DNA from: Halomicronema sp. CCY15110
Lineage (GTDB): Bacteria > Cyanobacteriota > Cyanobacteriia > Phormidesmidales > Phormidesmidaceae
Assembly: GCF_016888165.1 (NCBI RefSeq)
Contig: NZ_JACSWC010000328.1
Location: 1-34,656, forward strand
Direction of reading: 5' to 3'
DNA length: 34,656 nt
The position numbers were made by a program, and so were the translations under genes. Below, piece after piece: positions 8,239 through 29,903 of this stretch (position 1 is the first letter of the stretch; each line of letters opens with the position of its first letter). The notes below the pieces were generated by a model that did not search any database, had not been told where the DNA came from, and saw only the letters and a list, made by a program, of their open reading frames with translations.

Positions 8239-8312
8239 GGGCCTGTAGTTCAATTGGTTAGAGCACCGCCCTGTCACGGCGGAAGTTGCGGGTTCGAATC
8301 CCGTCAGGCCCG
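8239..8312 (+). tRNA. tRNA-Asp (anticodon GTC)
   Basis: A 74-nt cloverleaf. The acceptor stem GGGCCTG pairs with CAGGCCC, and the discriminator base is G8312. The anticodon stem is CCGCC/GGCGG (8266-8270 and 8278-8282), with loop CTGTCAC and anticodon GTC at 8273-8275. The T loop is GGTTCGAAT. The CCA end is not encoded. The accessory island begins about 0.5 kb downstream, and tRNA 3' ends are common integration sites. Confidence 0.97.
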
Positions 8313-8423: not shown

Positions 8424-8819
8424 ATGACTCCCAAGATCCTCACCAAGCGACTGCACAAAGCGCTGCTGGAAAACGGTGACATGGCTGAGGCCTTGTATGA
8501 GTATGAGATGCAGGAAAATCTCGACTATTGGTACAAGGGACTCATACGCGACAAAGACGATTATATGTTCGTCGTCACGGAAAATTCGGGTGATGTGGCT
8601 ATGGTGCTCATTACGACGGATAAAACGGTGTACGTGAATGAGCGGGCTAGAGAGAGGCTGATGGAATTATGGCCCGCCTACTACGCACAAAATATGGAAC
8701 AACTCATTCCTGGCATGGTGGAAGACTTACTAAGCGGTCATTTCTTTGAAATGGGCGTCAAAACGGTCGACACAACGAAGCAAAAAGGCCCCAGAAAGTC
8801 AGGTCGCTGGAAAAAATGA
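8424..8819 (+). CDS. Conserved-looking hypothetical protein
   Basis: A 131-residue soluble protein that I do not recognise. It starts with a basic segment (TPKILTKRLHKALLEN), continues with an acidic, aromatic-rich middle (EALYEYEMQENLDYWYKG, then VVTENSGDVAMVLITTD), and ends in a strongly basic tail (KQKGPRKSGRWKK). There are no membrane segments, signal peptide or clear motifs. ATG 8424 lies directly after a HIP1 octamer and has no evident Shine-Dalgarno sequence. It sits between tRNA-Asp and the HIP1-free island; it could belong to either the chromosome or the island. Confidence 0.65.
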   Translation: MTPKILTKRLHKALLENGDMAEALYEYEMQENLDYWYKGLIRDKDDYMFVVTENSGDVAMVLITTDKTVYVNERARERLMELWPAYYAQNMEQLIPGMVEDLLSGHFFEMGVKTVDTTKQKGPRKSGRWKK

Positions 8820-8835
8820 CGCTTTCAAATACCCC

Positions 8836-8873
8836 GCTTTGACGATTTCACTGTACGAGAAGCGAGTCAAAGC
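8836..8873 (+). terminator. Possible terminator hairpin after the 131-residue gene
   Basis: GCTTTGAC (8836-8843) pairs perfectly with GTCAAAGC (8866-8873) around a 22-base loop, 16 bases after the stop codon. There is no T-run, so termination is uncertain. Confidence 0.3.
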
Positions 8874-8913
8874 AAGCATCAATTTCTGAAGTTTGATGGT
8901 TTGAGATCGCTCC

Positions 8914-8944
8914 CAGGTCCCCCAGGTCCACACAGGTCAACCTG
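8914..8944. repeat. Three CAGGTC iterons
   Basis: The hexamer CAGGTC occurs at 8914, 8923 and 8933, at 9- and 10-base spacing. The last copy continues into a palindrome, CAGGTCAACCTG (8933-8944). Helically phased repeats upstream of a small gene could be a regulator binding site; this is inference. Confidence 0.5.
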
Positions 8945-9016
8945 CTAGGCGAACCCGTAGATCCGCTGTATCGCTCTCTGGGTAAAGCTTTCAGCGATCG
9001 CTTGTGGTTGTTTCAA

Positions 9017-9046
9017 AGGGGCAACCCGGGATCCCGAGAAGCCCCT
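9017..9046 (+). promoter_or_regulatory. Structured leader in front of the 66-residue gene
   Basis: AGGGGC (9017-9022) pairs with GCCCCT (9041-9046), and the interior carries the palindrome CGGGATCCCG (9027-9036). The nested hairpin ends 14 bases before the ribosome-binding site AAAGGA of the gene starting at 9071. It could act as an attenuator, a translation-control element or an RNA-stabilising structure. Confidence 0.45.
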
Positions 9047-9070
9047 AACCACTAACCCAAAGGAATAACC

Positions 9071-9271
9071 ATGACCGCTATCACTATCGCTTCCTATGAC
9101 CCCGCTACCGCTGTCCTAGACCTAACCCTAGATGTTGCCGGGGAAGTCTACCAAGATGAGATCCGGGCTAGCCTAGATGCCATCCTAGATGCCCCTCCTG
9201 AGGACTGCGTAGAGATCACCTGGGACCTAGTGGGAGCCTCCCTAGTCTGCACCGTAGACACCGGGCTGTAG
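9071..9271 (+). CDS. Small, highly acidic hypothetical protein
   Basis: A 66-residue protein behind a good ribosome-binding site (AAAGGA, 6 bases before ATG). It has 13 Asp/Glu and a single basic residue (one Arg, no Lys), one Trp and two Cys, and no membrane segment. Seven of its eight leucines use CTA, a codon that is rare in the surrounding chromosomal genes, so CTAG-containing words recur through the gene. That points to recent transfer from a genome with different codon habits, such as a phage or plasmid. Such acidity is seen in antitoxins, DNA-mimic proteins and small phage proteins, but nothing here identifies it as one. It points towards the two membrane-protein genes on the opposite strand. 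Confidence 0.7.
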   Translation: MTAITIASYDPATAVLDLTLDVAGEVYQDEIRASLDAILDAPPEDCVEITWDLVGASLVCTVDTGL

Positions 9272-9325
9272 GACTGGCTACCGTGCTACTTATAGCTTTG
9301 AAGCTTTTGGGGAATAGGCTCAGTG

Positions 9326-9353
9326 GCCGGTTAACCTAAGCCGGTTAACCTAA
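9326..9353. repeat. Tandem 14-bp repeat with GGTTAACC palindromes
   Basis: GCCGGTTAACCTAA is repeated exactly twice (9326-9339 and 9340-9353). Each copy contains the 8-bp palindrome GGTTAACC. The second copy overlaps the stop codon of the minus-strand gene 9345-9902. It lies between two convergent genes and could be a protein-binding site, a termination structure or a recombination scar. Confidence 0.7.
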
Positions 9354-9902
9354 AGGGTCTTTCAGATCTTCGAGAGATCTCAGCAAGTCCGACATCCACT
9401 TTGTAACTTTATCGAGGTTCTTAAAGTCCTTTTGCTGAAAAGTTTCGTAGTGGTGTTTAGCGGTCCTAAAGCAACCGTAAACCTCGAGAACTTTTCTCGT
9501 TTGCTCTAGGTTCAGTGTCTCCGGCAGTTTGGGCAAGAAAACTTCATATGCTTGGGTCTGTAAACCCAGTGCTGGAAACATAACACCAACTCTATGTTTT
9601 GGAGAATACGCCTCTAGTGTTCCTGATATCTCATCTAGCATCTTTGTGACTTCTTTTATGCGGTCATAGTTATGGTCTATCTCTAACCTCAGTAGTGTCC
9701 TAACGGCCTCTGCCTCCTTCTTAGCCTTAGCTTTCTCCCTCTTGTCTACAGCACTTTGATTAACGAAAGCACCTGTCACGGCACCTAAAAGGGCTGTCAT
9801 TGCTGGGAATACAGGGTTAGCTGCAAAAGTTACAAGTCCACCCCAGAGCATCTCCCGGGCTTCAATGAGTATGGTCGCTATTGCTTCTGAGGTTTCTATC
9901 AT
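9345..9902 (-). CDS. Membrane-anchored hypothetical protein with H-N motif (paralogue A)
   Basis: A 185-residue protein of unknown function. A hydrophobic segment near the N-terminus (about 19-47) is followed by a very basic Lys/Ala linker (DKREKAKAKKEAEA, 53-66) and then AVRTLLRLEIDHN, with His77-Asn78. The rest is helical and charged, with an aromatic-rich stretch (GLQTQAYEVFLPKL, 113-126) and a helical C-terminus. The neighbour at 9920-10798 has the same order of elements, including NPV, AFV, the basic linker and AVRT...E-HN, so the two are probably paralogues. It is 17 bp downstream of that gene, in one operon. The DNA is AT-richer than its surroundings and lacks HIP1. No Shine-Dalgarno sequence is seen, so translation may be coupled. 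Confidence 0.75.
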   Translation of the reverse strand: MIETSEAIATILIEAREMLWGGLVTFAANPVFPAMTALLGAVTGAFVNQSAVDKREKAKAKKEAEAVRTLLRLEIDHNYDRIKEVTKMLDEISGTLEAYSPKHRVGVMFPALGLQTQAYEVFLPKLPETLNLEQTRKVLEVYGCFRTAKHHYETFQQKDFKNLDKVTKWMSDLLRSLEDLKDPLG

Positions 9903-9919
9903 TAGGAGTCTTGAGAAAA

Positions 9920-10798
9920 CTAATATAAATTTTTGGTGTTCTGTCTTAAGATTTTTGATATTTTCTTGTTGTCTTCAATAGCTATGTCAAGGAAAATAAA
10001 TATCTGATCGGCCTTTCTCTTGAGGGTTTGAGAATACTGTTTCTCTTTTGTCTCTAGTTCCTCTTCTAAAGTCTGATCGTTATTCTGTAGCTGCATTAGC
10101 CTTTCTCTGCGGAGGAGTGAGTCAAGATCATCCTTTTCTTTCGTTGACCGTATTTCCATCATCTCTTTTAGTAGCGCGTTTCTCTTCTTTCTTTCTTCTA
10201 TTGTGGTTATCTCATCAAGAACATCCTTCTCTATATCCATTAAAGTCATGTCCCTAAAATAAACATTTGATAACAGGGGATATATTCTTTCATAGAGTCC
10301 GAAAAGATCTGTAAGTTCTTGTGTGTCAAAAGCTTCATAAAGTAGCTCAGAACCTATTGACAAAAAGCTCTTTCTCACATGATGGGACTGAGAAAAAAGC
10401 TCAAGTGAAGTTTTTAGTCCAAACGGGTAGTGCTCATCCCCCGTCGCGTCATCTATCGACTTGCTTAGAAGCTCTCTATCTCTTTTAAGCATCTTTTCAT
10501 TGTGTTCAAGCTCTATGGTTATCATTGTTCGAACGGCTGCTAGGGTTTTTCTGCGCTCCTCTCTCTCTTTTTCTCTTGTTTGCTTTTCTTCTCTCCTAAA
10601 AGCCCATTGAGAAAGGACAAAAGCTAGTGTAGGGCCTAAGGAAAACTTGCTTAAGTCTCCCAGTAGACTTAGCGCCTTAACAGGATTCGACACGGAAGCC
10701 CATAAGCTTAAAGTCATTCTATCTAGATAGATAAAAAGGCTATTGAGGGTGGACCAGATCCAGATAGCTAAAGGAAATAAAAACTCTTCAGGCGTCAT
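9920..10798 (-). CDS. Membrane-anchored coiled-coil hypothetical protein with H-N motif (paralogue B)
   Basis: A 292-residue protein of unknown function. It has two hydrophobic N-terminal segments (about 5-24 and 42-64) and a dense basic/acidic linker (RREEKQTREKEREERRK, 68-84). AVRTMITIELEHN (His99-Asn100) matches paralogue A. A middle domain (about 120-185) ends in LFGLYERIYPLLSNVY, and a long charged helix likely to form a coiled coil runs from about 188 to 270. The gene is markedly A/T-rich, with many AGA/AAA codons (TCT and TTT on the + strand), and lacks HIP1. It is the first gene of the pair. A transfer origin is likely. Membrane-plus-coiled-coil pairs occur in defence and stress islands, but nothing enzymatic is visible. 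Confidence 0.78.
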   Translation of the reverse strand: MTPEEFLFPLAIWIWSTLNSLFIYLDRMTLSLWASVSNPVKALSLLGDLSKFSLGPTLAFVLSQWAFRREEKQTREKEREERRKTLAAVRTMITIELEHNEKMLKRDRELLSKSIDDATGDEHYPFGLKTSLELFSQSHHVRKSFLSIGSELLYEAFDTQELTDLFGLYERIYPLLSNVYFRDMTLMDIEKDVLDEITTIEERKKRNALLKEMMEIRSTKEKDDLDSLLRRERLMQLQNNDQTLEEELETKEKQYSQTLKRKADQIFIFLDIAIEDNKKISKILRQNTKNLY

Positions 10799-11106
10799 GG
10801 GGCTAACTGAGGAAAACTCCCAATATTTTGGCCTAACCCATCTAGGACCCGCTAGTAGAAAATCTTCCCGGTTTCCCTAGGAGGGGGCTAATGCGCGATC
10901 GCGATCGCTGGGAACTTGTCTCACATTGAACGCTCCAGCGCCCTGATTTGTTACGTCTGTGCCAGCGGGCAGGGCACTCAGGAATGTCGCCGACGTCAAG
11001 GTGACAGCGAGGCGGATGACGAAGCCGACGGTATGCCGCCCCATATTTTGCCAAAGCCGGTTTCTGTATCTTGTACGCTTATTGAGGAACTACGGCGGAA
11101 CGCGGA
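10799..11106. other. Right border of the island, no supported gene
   Basis: Sequence composition changes from AT-rich to GC-rich around 10830-10890. Two overlapping HIP1 octamers at 10895-10908 mark the return of chromosomal sequence. A short plus-strand frame (10916-11131) overlaps the next gene and looks non-coding. No copy of the tRNA-Asp 3' end was found here by eye. Confidence 0.55.
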
Positions 11107-26975: not shown

Positions 26976-27198
26976 TCACTGGAGCAGAGTCCCGCAAGGC
27001 AATGCGCCCTGACCACCCAGGCTGATTAGGCTATAGGGTTGATTTTCAGCGATGAGGTGTTTGCGGCTGTCCTCAGCCTGAAAGTGCCGCAGGTATAGCA
27101 AAAATGAAAGGTGAAACCCTCTTAGCATAAGGGGGCTTGGCATTTTAGGGCGATCGCAACCTAAGCAGTGACTCCAGGTTTCACGCTGAGAACAAGAA

Positions 27199-27227
27199 CC
27201 CAGCTCGGCAATGGCTGCTGAGCTGGG
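27199..27227 (-). terminator. Terminator of murA
   Basis: CCCAGCTCGGCA (27199-27210) pairs with TGCTGAGCTGGG (27216-27227), 12 bp with one G-T wobble and a 5-base loop. Read on the minus strand, it is followed by TTCTTGTTCT. It sits 32 bases beyond the murA stop codon. Confidence 0.75.
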
Positions 27228-27258
27228 CGAGAACGAGGCTTGCTAGTCACCGTGGAGC

Positions 27259-28608
27259 TTACCGCGATCGACGCGATGCAGTGATTTCTTCACTGGTTTC
27301 GGCTACCTGACCAGTCGTGCCGTCGATGCGGGTGATCCGGGCTCCTAGCTTCGTCAGTTTCCGTTCGAGCTGTTCGTAGCCGCGGTCTAAGTGTTGCAAG
27401 CCACTCATGACGGTTTTGCCTTGAGCACCGAGTCCCGCCAGCACTAGGGCCGCCGACGCCCGCAGGTCAGTGGCCATCACTGGCGCACCGGAAAGCATGG
27501 GCACCCCCTGAATGATGGCGCAGTTGCCATTCACCCGGACATTAGCCCCCATCCGGCTGAATTCAGCCACGTGACGGAGTCGATTTTCAAAAACGGTCTC
27601 AGTGACCATGCTGCTACCGTTGCTCAGGGTCATCAAGGCCATAAACTGGGCTTGCATGTCAGTCGGAAAGCCCGGATAAGGCAAGGTTTGAATGTCAGTC
27701 GCTTGAATTTCATCCCCTGGGATTAAGGAGATGCGGTTCGGCGATTCCACAACGATTTGCGAACCCGCTTCCTGCAATTTAGCGATGACGGCTCCCAATT
27801 GTTCGGGAACGATGGGCGATACACTGATTTTCGATCGCGTAATCGCGCCAGCAATTAGAAAGGTGCCTGCTTCAATGCGATCGGGCACGATCGCATAATC
27901 GGTACTGTGGAGGCTGGGCACCCCAGAAATTGTCAAGGTCTTAGTGCCGACACCCCGAATGCGAGCCCCCATGGCCCGACAAAAATTTGCGAGATCAGCA
28001 ACTTCAGGTTCTTGAGCGGCATTGTCGATGACGGTATCCCCTTCCGCTAGGGTCGCGGCCATCATCAGCGTCTCGGTGGCCCCCACACTGGGGTAATCCA
28101 AATAAATATTGGCCCCTTGCAGCCGTTTGCGAATGCCAGGAATGCAGGCATGTACGGTGCCATGCTCGATTTGCACATTGGCTCCCATCGCTTGCAAGCC
28201 CCGGACATGCAGTTCCACAGGCCGTGCGCCAATGGCGCATCCCCCCGGTAGGGGAATGCGGGCGACGCCCATACGCGCTAGCAATGGCCCGATGACGAAG
28301 AAGCTTGCCCGCAATTTGCTCACGATCTCGTAAGGAGCGCGAGTGTGGCTGATATCACTGGGATCGAGCTCCCAACAGTCGTCTTCCTGCTTGATTTTGA
28401 CGCCGAGGGCGGTCAACACTGCCGCCATGCGGTGGACATCAACGAGGTTGGGGATGTTGCGCAGACGGCAGGGTTGAGAACAGAGCAGAATCCCAGCCAT
28501 GACGACCAAGGCGGAATTTTTGGCTCCACTAATCGAAACGTGACCGGCTAGCGGGTGTTGCCCCCAGATCTCTAAAACCGAGTTGTCTGCTTCAGGGGAA
28601 TTGGACAT
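27259..28608 (-). CDS. murA: UDP-N-acetylglucosamine 1-carboxyvinyltransferase MurA
   Basis: A 449-residue EPSP-synthase-fold enzyme that transfers enolpyruvate from PEP to UDP-GlcNAc, the first committed step of peptidoglycan synthesis. The N-terminal SGAKNSAL has the Lys30-Asn31 pair. The catalytic loop [14 protein letters not shown] contains the PEP-reacting Cys124 (the fosfomycin target). [15 protein letters not shown] carries the conserved Asp of the active site. The start is uncertain: ATG 28608 gives the usual cyanobacterial N-terminus but lacks a ribosome-binding site, while GGAGG at 28648-28644 points to an in-frame ATC at 28635 (see findings). Confidence 0.96.
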
Positions 28609-28878
28609 CTGTGTAATACCAGTGGCTGTAACGATGGGCTTATCCTCCAAAACCTGAGCGGAACAACTCAGATGTAAATTTTCGTCTAAATTCTACTTGA
28701 TTCAACCATTTTTCTGGAAATTTTGCGCTGACCAAATCGATAATCCTTGCGGTGGGTCAATTGCGAGGAGGATTGATTTTTGGCCAGGGTAGTTGACGAA
28801 GCGCCTCCTCTTAGGGCACTGTATAAGACTGCGGTAGGTAGCGGGTTGAAAAGCTGCTAAATGCTGCAATTCCAGTTA

Positions 28879-28962
28879 GCGGAACTGGCGGAATTGGTAG
28901 ACGCGCTAGATTCAGGTTCTAGTGTTCGCAAGAACTTCCGGGTTCAAGTCCCGGGTTCCGCA
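28879..28962 (+). tRNA. tRNA-Leu (anticodon CAG)
   Basis: An 84-nt class II tRNA. The acceptor stem GCGGAAC pairs with GTTCCGC and the discriminator is A28962. The anticodon stem CTAGA/TCTAG (28906-28910 and 28918-28922) encloses TTCAGGT, with anticodon CAG at 28913-28915. A long variable arm follows (TGTTCGCAAGAACT), then the T arm with GGTTCAAGT. CCA is not encoded. Confidence 0.96.
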
Positions 28963-29117
28963 TATTTCAATTAAAAAGTTTCTATGACTCTGGTTAGCAC
29001 TGCAAATGAGTCATTTAGCTCGTTTGGCGCGATGTTCACAGATTTGTAATATTTGATGAATGCACGCTGGAGTGATTAGTTTTTTGTAAGCTATTGGCAA
29101 TTGCGGATGGAGCCGTT

Positions 29118-29903
29118 GTGCTGACAAGTCTGAAGAATCCTTGGGTGAAAACCTTGCGCAAGCTGCATCAAGCCAAGTATCGGCGGCAGCAACAGCAGTT
29201 TTTGTTGGAAGGAACGCATTTAGTACAGGCGGCGATCGCGACCCAATATCCGTTGCAGGCGGTGTGTGCGACTGCTGTATGGCAAGCGCGACATCCGGCC
29301 TTATGGGAGCAGTTGAGTCAAGGCACTGACCGCCAGGAAACGGTGAGCCCGGAGGTGCTGGGGGCGATCGCCACTACGCAGACTCCGGATGGTGTGGTCG
29401 CGATCGCATCCAGTGACACCGTGACTGCGACCATTCATCACCCCACCTTGGGCTTAGCCCTGGAAGACATTCAAGACCCCGGCAATGTGGGGACGCTAAT
29501 GCGGACGGCAGCGGCAGCGGGCGGTGACGGCATCTGGCTCAGCCCAAATAGTGTGGATCTAACTCACCCGAAAGTCTTGCGAGCTTCAGCGGGGCAATGG
29601 TTTCGGCTGCGTAAGCAAGTCGGCCATGACCTGTTAACCCAAGTGTCTGCATGGCGGGAGCAGGGGTGTCAGATTCTCGCGACGGCGGCCACCGGAGCCG
29701 TACCCTACTGGCAGGTTGACCTCACGTGCCCGACGGTGCTGGTGGTCGGCAATGAAGGCGCAGGGTTGTCGCCTGAGGCGATCGCCGCCGCCGATCATGC
29801 GATCGCCATTCCGATGATGAATGATGTCGAATCCTTAAATGTGGGCGTGGCGGCCGCCGTCATTTTGTTTGAAGCGGTGCGTCAGCGTCAGCACCTGGGG
29901 TGA
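29118..29903 (+). CDS. SpoU/TrmH family RNA 2'-O-methyltransferase
   Basis: A 261-residue SPOUT methyltransferase. The N-terminal substrate-binding domain starts LTSLKNPWVKTLRKLHQAKYRR with FLLEGTHLVQ, as in RlmB/TsnR-type enzymes. The three SPOUT knot motifs are present: DIQDPGNVGTLMRTA (117-131), VVGNEGAGLS and IPMMNDVESLNVGVAAA. It methylates a ribose 2'-OH in rRNA or tRNA with SAM; the exact nucleotide cannot be read from the sequence. GTG 29118 has GGAG five bases upstream; an earlier in-frame TTG at 29094 is less likely. Confidence 0.9.
   Translation: MLTSLKNPWVKTLRKLHQAKYRRQQQQFLLEGTHLVQAAIATQYPLQAVCATAVWQARHPALWEQLSQGTDRQETVSPEVLGAIATTQTPDGVVAIASSDTVTATIHHPTLGLALEDIQDPGNVGTLMRTAAAAGGDGIWLSPNSVDLTHPKVLRASAGQWFRLRKQVGHDLLTQVSAWREQGCQILATAATGAVPYWQVDLTCPTVLVVGNEGAGLSPEAIAAADHAIAIPMMNDVESLNVGVAAAVILFEAVRQRQHLG

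Follow-up and report, generated by a model that had tools for sequence, protein, structure and literature searches.

P4 targets tRNA genes, and the tycheposons of Prochlorococcus are cyanobacterial, tRNA-associated elements with a tyrosine recombinase and variable cargo. This report concerns a 2-kb block within a 34,656-nucleotide (nt) stretch of Halomicronema sp. CCY15110 (contig NZ_JACSWC010000328.1, positions 1 to 34,656), hereafter the window, which contains two genes of one protein family, termed P (P185 and P292), and a facing open reading frame (ORF) for a small acidic protein, ORF66. According to a published study, the defence genes of P4-like satellites lie between psu and int (PMC9122126). 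The hotspot described there is likewise a small variable cargo locus beside an integrase in a small element; by comparison, no psu is known at the present locus, where it was not looked for, no helper phage is known, the window copy is an orphan, and defence is not proven. The elements considered here would share these general traits with tycheposons, in different hosts. Such a cassette is not described in the available parts of the literature on tycheposons, satellite hotspots, cyanobacterial integrative elements, and HIP1 or horizontal transfer, and the corresponding parts of the literature on Nodosilinea integrases and islands contain neither such a cassette nor any mention of Nodosilinea. 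A literature search for cyanobacterial satellites with VapE found nothing.

A Foreign Block Related to an Integrase Region

Homology supports an origin of the block as an orphaned cargo cassette of small cyanobacterial integrative elements with a tyrosine recombinase. It holds two divergent P genes, and the small acidic gene that converges on them has kin beside an integrase. Combined with an exclusion or defence role at the membrane, this explanation is held with confidence slightly above even. The main comparisons are with two loci of the relative G001, namely an integrase region (G001:C2) and a single P gene (G001:C1), and with a P gene of the relative G055. The features of the block are as follows, with lengths in amino acids (aa).

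8931 to 10915, no strand: foreign cassette, with limits set by homology to the G001 loci
8931 to 9070, plus strand: conserved ORF66 leader, including a palindrome at 9017-9046, with homology to G001:C2
9071 to 9271, plus strand: ORF66, an acidic 66-aa protein of net charge -12, with a homologue beside the integrase in G001:C2
9272 to 9344, no strand: convergent intergenic region, with the 3' flank of ORF66 and a tandem 14-nt repeat
9345 to 9902, minus strand: P185, 185 aa, predicted N-terminal hydrophobic helices and four-helix bundle (66-185), with R68-x5-E74-x3-N78
9920 to 10798, minus strand: P292, 292 aa, same family, with a predicted long C-terminal helical extension; its model is poor
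10799 to 10915, minus strand: upstream region of P292, which resembles that of the lone P gene in G001:C1 and, weakly, that of the G055 gene

The genes are genuine, and AT-richness, alien codon usage and CTAG enrichment mark the block as foreign. A sequence-only reading of this DNA had proposed two adjacent minus-strand genes and, facing them, a gene for an acidic 66-residue protein. All three were found as described, with ORFs of 185 and 292 aa on the minus strand and 66 aa on the plus strand. The guanine-cytosine (GC) fraction is 0.447 in 8931-10915 and 0.567 in the rest of the window, and not one of 62 windows of 1 kb from outside 8501-11000 falls below 0.50. CTAG occurs at 9.0 per kb within the block and 1.5 per kb outside it. 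The mean log relative codon score is -0.46 for P185 and -0.52 for P292, while 13 other window genes score +0.06 to +0.22, 11 of these 13 forming the reference set. ORF66 scores -0.11.

The left part of the block, 8931-9194, is homologous at the DNA level to the integrase-bearing region G001:C2 (62%, E 9e-17 in that comparison). In G001:C2, an acidic ORF faces a tyrosine recombinase (PF00589, 4.2e-17) 49 nt away, and a VapE-like gene (PF05272, 4.8e-45) lies in the same region. Within the homologous block, leader positions 8953-9035 are 77% identical to the leader of that acidic ORF. The encoded protein, of 65 aa and net charge -11, shares an LDLTL core with ORF66 and matches it at 38% over 32 aa (E 8e-6, single comparison). 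A further segment, 9266-9298, is 79% identical to G001:C2 and is weak alone (E 0.2).

At G001:C1, the single P gene is followed on its 3' side by a decayed convergent copy of the ORF66 module (165 nt at 70%, E 2.8e-19), which has stops in all three frames across it; the P gene itself is still open. The gene end there is similar to the 3' region of P185, and the upstream region of P292 is 70% identical to that of the G001:C1 gene over 96 nt (10796-10890, E 3.4e-5). The upstream score for G001 was reached by none of 1000 mononucleotide shuffles, and that for G055 by 2 of 1000. These ORF66-module and P292-upstream matches indicate that the window block is related on both sides to the G001:C1 locus, on one side via the G001:C2 copy.

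P Genes and Small tRNA-Gene Elements

The G001:C2 integrase was searched in 143 relatives, of which 80 matched at 1e-15. The window's own genome (G000) is among them, with both of its matches on other contigs (C374 and C360). The P profile was then run over the G001:C2 region and the six best-scoring integrase loci after the query (L128-L133, L133 being only 4.5 kb). One P gene was found, in locus L129 of genome G086 (E 5.8e-16). The gene is located within a 6.2-kb element bounded by 103-nt repeats (99%), one of which overlaps tRNA-Ala, and about 50 bp separates it from the integrase. The same element carries a NikA-like mobilisation protein. With a leave-one-out profile, the G086 member scores 55 bits, and the best of 300 shuffles reaches 4.1. 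In a scan of all 134 loci, only the three weak matches dropped below as chance (best 3.9e-4) appeared besides the copies of known members. Repeats of 62-128 nt overlap tRNA genes in L128, L130, L131 and L132, which shows that this integrase group inserts at tRNAs. A search of viral contigs with the G001:C2 integrase found no kin.

Five small tRNA-gene elements were delimited in these loci (L128 10388-17250, L129 4249-10471, L130 6251-15319, L131 2131-11000 and L132 7982-14785). Their integrases are related, and their cargo is varied and mostly unannotated. HIP1 is nearly absent from four of the five (0-0.11 per kb, against 0.79-1.97 outside) and is not depleted in this way in L129. One cargo protein (L132 12140-12823, minus strand) is weakly similar to ZorA models (best E 5e-5), perhaps through coiled-coil resemblance.

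The P Protein Family

As judged by their sequences, P185 and P292 have diverged within a single undescribed family, which has no significant match in the profile libraries searched. The two genes lie 17 nt apart on the same strand. The proteins match each other at 28% over 132 aa (E 4e-6, single comparison), and a profile of six outside homologues scores them at 74 and 91 bits, respectively, against 5.9 and 7.8 for the best of 300 shuffles. Of the shared elements that the sequence-only reading had listed, NPV and AFV are present in both proteins and aligned in the eight-member alignment, but the linker it had called very basic is highly charged and mixed (K+R 6 and D+E 4 in P185; 9 and 6 in P292). 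Of its H-N motif, the H is not conserved across the eight members. The invariant residues in all eight, in P185 numbering, are G40, R68, E74, N78 and Y142, which gives the pattern R-x5-E-x3-N. A long coiled coil had been assigned to one of the proteins; in a model of low confidence, a long helical extension is present at the C-terminus of P292 only.

The best 19-residue hydropathy mean is 1.48 in P185 and 1.55 in P292; it is 0.90-1.55 in seven of the eight members and 2.06 in that of G046. The hydrophobic N-terminus proposed earlier is thus moderate only. The P proteins are likely, not certainly, anchored in the membrane by their N-terminal helices.

Among seven P members, the best library E-values were 0.0023 in Pfam (PaREP1, 18.2 bits, cut-off 24.4), 0.005 in PHROGs and 0.058 in NCBIfam. 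PADLOC-DB 2.0.0 gave no significant match to P185 (best 0.021) or P292 (best 0.013) and no match to ORF66, and the G086 member matched neither Pfam nor PADLOC at 0.01. A sequence search of PDB gave a best E-value of 0.0099, to an RNA polymerase II subunit, which was taken as chance. In the tree, P185 groups with the proteins of G050 and G055 (97/97) and P292 falls outside. This placement does not support a recent tandem duplication, the two proteins being on different branches of a tree with long branches and two open forks. An origin of the G001 P gene as a P292/P185 hybrid was also considered; its N-terminal half is clearly P292-like (z 17), and its C-terminal part is undecided.

The P185 model, built from eight sequences, has a predicted local distance difference test score (pLDDT) of 75.2 and a predicted template modelling score (pTM) of 0.60. 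Its N-terminal helices are of low confidence, and a four-helix bundle spans about residues 66-185. For P292 the model is poor (pLDDT 58.7, pTM 0.30), and any structural comparison of the pair is to be read with that value. With the P185 model, Foldseek found no match in PDB or BFVD at E <= 0.001. The best VIA-align Z was 11.0, to 9dwa (FABLE), a designed protein; such a Z is within the range that the note of that tool gives for helical models. The four-helix-bundle ligand-binding domains of chemoreceptors (Tsr 8vl8 and PcaY_PP 6s18) match the bundle at Z 8.5-8.6 over 113-116 residues. Bundles commonly give a Z of this size, and a sequence relation of these domains to P185 is not shown. Ligand-binding domains of chemoreceptors are periplasmic, whereas the P bundle appears cytoplasmic from the charged residues that follow the hydrophobic helix.

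Homologues of P185 were found in 5 of 142 other genomes and those of P292 in 4, all among the same five. These five, which include G050 (Nodosilinea sp. LEGE 07088), G022 (Leptolyngbya sp. SIO4C5) and G055 (filamentous cyanobacterium CCT1), have one P gene each. The sixth, that of G086, was reached through its integrase element, where the 19.5 kb examined contains no other P gene; since the single-protein searches did not report it, the family counts are understated. A P profile matched 6 of 63 genomes of the order, with two genes only in the genome of the window; the profile was built from those same members. Among 386 genomes of the phylum, 5 matched, and three marginal short matches (8e-4 to 1e-3), from a single other family with small genomes, were dropped as chance, leaving G000 and G001. 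Viral contigs, scanned with P185, P292, the A2 alignment and the G086 member, gave no relative; such scans find mostly close relatives. Phages and plasmids, searched with the G050 and G086 members only, gave none.

The sequence-only reading had inferred a system and had asked whether homologues are always adjacent. A system is not supported: the P genes of the six other genomes are single, five with one each and the sixth alone in its 19.5 kb. It had also named, as grounds for its own refutation, homologues that occur singly in conserved chromosomal positions; they are indeed single, but their places are scattered. By Pfam, the only library scanned for neighbours, lumazine synthase and a cyclase lie near the G055 gene, an Xre-type regulator and a CAAX-protease-like protein near that of G050, a lipase, a PIN protein and an SNF2 helicase near that of G001, and Uma2 proteins near that of G046. 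The G055 gene is within about 120 nt of tRNA-Gly and the G022 gene within about 30 nt of tRNA-Val. Each of the six single P genes has a lower GC than its fetched stretch and contains no HIP1.

ORF66 and Its Leader

ORF66 would go with the element and not with the P genes. Its kin in G001:C2 adjoins an integrase with no P gene there, and the P loci of G050, G022, G055, G046 and G086 have no match to the ORF66 profile; ORF66 is therefore not an obligate partner of P. Across the P loci, it is intact at one (the window), decayed at one (G001:C1) and without profile match at five.

The leader had been described as structured. Its sequence does recur elsewhere, as given above, but its folding does not exceed that of shuffled sequences (z -1.25; 25 of 200 shuffles fold as well), and a structured RNA leader was rejected. 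A search of Rfam with the leader gave only a sub-threshold match to R1162 antisense RNA (E 0.28, 24.5 of 55 bits). Scans for sigma-70 promoters and terminators gave matches no more often than in shuffles. The 14-nt repeat of the convergent intergenic region starts at 9326 and 9340, and its second copy reaches into the end of P185.

Searched against plasmids, the G001:C2 acidic protein gave no match, and against phages it gave one Vibrio phage in two records (E 0.5), which was taken as chance. The acidic profile matched 13 of 388 genomes at 0.05, of which 11 were dropped as chance, mostly parts of large proteins. One dropped match is a 494-aa protein with three repeats of the pattern YDP-TGVLSLTG (1.2e-12 over the repeats); its similarity to the profile may be a beta-repeat resemblance, which is unproven.

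Other small ORFs were seen near P genes. G050 has two unrelated acidic ORFs near its P gene (net -8 and -7). The G086 element contains a strongly acidic 92-aa ORF (L129 6021-6296, minus strand, net -17) without an ORF66-profile match. In G055, an 82-aa ORF (L030 8929-9174, minus strand) faces the P gene, in the same place as ORF66 in the window; its sequence looks membrane-spanning, and its DNA has several CTAG.

Flanks of the Block

Two features lie to the left of the block.

8239 to 8312, plus strand: tRNA-Asp(GTC), flanking; no copy resembling an attachment (att) site found to the right
8424 to 8819, plus strand: ORF131, flanking gene outside the cassette; in G005, the DNA after the tRNA-Asp block matches it at 81%

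A tRNA gene had been said to lie near the block. The tRNA-Asp is present, but ORF131 (131 aa, codon score -0.03) separates it from the block and follows the same tRNA-Asp block in G005. This tRNA was dropped as attachment site, given the intervening ORF131 in both the window and G005 and the lack of a repeat: nothing beyond 11 nt was found to the right, and no direct repeats were found between the two junctions. Flanking homology stops at 8819 (ORF131, G005) and restarts at 11034-11053 in four relatives. An empty site was not recoverable, since the flanking blocks are separated in relatives and the genes next to the P gene of G001:C1 match three different G000 contigs. A tblastn search of the whole window with three integrases gave no match. 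In G048, an 816-aa protein with TIR, NB-ARC and TPR was seen close to the homologue of ORF131 (L065 6421-8868, plus strand).

The block had further been described as an AT-richer stretch free of HIP1. Both statements are correct, as no HIP1 site occurs in 9002-10894, but the gap of 1,901 nt is ordinary. It is the second-longest in the window, the longest being 2,082 nt (27150-29232), and about 1.5 gaps of that size are expected by chance from 70 HIP1 sites in 34.7 kb by our own arithmetic, so the gap was dropped as island evidence. The longest gap contains tRNA-Leu (28879-28962) and a 463-aa ORF, and 28001-29000 has 5 CTAG.

Weighing of Explanations

Several results weigh against the block as cargo of mobile elements with a role at the membrane. 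A P gene occurs in only 1 of the 7 integrase loci scanned at length and in 1 of 30 loci from the integrase search (L083-L112, about 1.5 kb on each side), that of G086 in both cases, and integrase kin is absent from the fetched stretches of the P loci G050, G022, G055, G001:C1 and G046. The window block itself has neither integrase kin nor flanking direct repeats, so its own mobility is not shown, and it is called a remnant by homology rather than a proven element. No att repeats were found in the G001:C2 region examined. CTAG is clearly enriched in G001:C2 and G086 (9.2 vs 4.0 per kb), slightly in L130-L132 and not in L128, and the GC of the G086 element does not fall below that of its surroundings. 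The N-terminal hydropathy is moderate in seven of eight P members, the fold matches are of the common-bundle kind only, and none of the three P proteins scanned (of eight) has a significant PADLOC match. The moderate hydropathy and the count of 1 in 30 lower the confidence in the whole explanation.

Four other explanations were compared with it. The P genes may serve the element itself, in entry exclusion or in control of excision or transfer, rather than phage defence. The place of the G086 gene beside an integrase and the NikA-like mobilisation protein in that element fit this proposal, but the genes persist without an element in the window and at five other P loci, where the fetched stretches lack integrase kin, and it is regarded as unlikely. 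If the P genes were instead ordinary chromosomal accessory membrane genes, for stress or envelope functions and unlinked to mobile elements, the mostly plain chromosomal Pfam neighbours at four other P loci and the lack of integrase kin there would be accounted for. The G086 element with its att repeats, the module common to the G001 integrase region and the foreign composition are at odds with this, which makes it quite improbable.

Two further proposals take the genes of the block as interacting partners, and both are considered very improbable. In one, P185 and P292 form an obligate two-protein heteromeric membrane defence system, with the P292 extension as sensor or spacer. Their spacing, common strand and same architecture agree with it; it is opposed by the six single P genes elsewhere (for G086, only within 19.5 kb), by the different branches of the two proteins and by the absence of a significant defence profile match. 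In the other, the P proteins are membrane toxins that acidic ORF66 neutralises via the charged linker, as in a toxin-antitoxin system. The net charge of ORF66 speaks for this, as does its convergent position, with the gene intact in the window and decayed next to the G001:C1 P gene. Against it, the G001:C1 copy is broken while its P gene stays open, five other P loci lack an ORF66-profile match (although G050 has its two unrelated acidic ORFs), the kin of ORF66 stands beside an integrase without P, and the linkers are not strongly basic. A conserved linkage of toxin and antitoxin was not found. The broader statement of the sequence-only reading, an accessory block with paralogous, probably membrane-anchored proteins and a facing small acidic protein, is supported, as is horizontal acquisition of the block.

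Proposed Role and Significance

Under the explanation as orphaned mobile-element cargo, the N-terminal helices of the P proteins would hold them at the inner membrane, with the four-helix bundle and its conserved R, E and N facing the cytoplasm. They would favour the resident element by acting at the membrane in superinfection exclusion or phage defence, and P185 and P292 would be parallel versions of different specificity rather than obligate partners. Of the roles considered, defence or superinfection exclusion is likeliest, though a tentative one that falls short of an even chance, as judged by position only. The comparison with P4-satellite cargo was drawn from the probable anchor, the apparently cytoplasmic bundle and the place beside an integrase in one element. 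A more specific and rather doubtful version is that the P proteins are a new family of membrane-anchored four-helix-bundle effectors, carried beside the integrase in small integrative elements of cyanobacteria for superinfection exclusion, that the acidic microprotein regulates them or the element, and that tandem divergent copies provide different phage specificities.

The analysis links the P family, which has no significant match in the libraries searched, with small elements that bear an integrase in filamentous cyanobacteria. It also points to the DNA beside the integrase as a definite site in which to seek further cargo. If it is true that P genes exclude phages, they would represent a defence type in hosts for which, in our own judgement, few are experimentally known.

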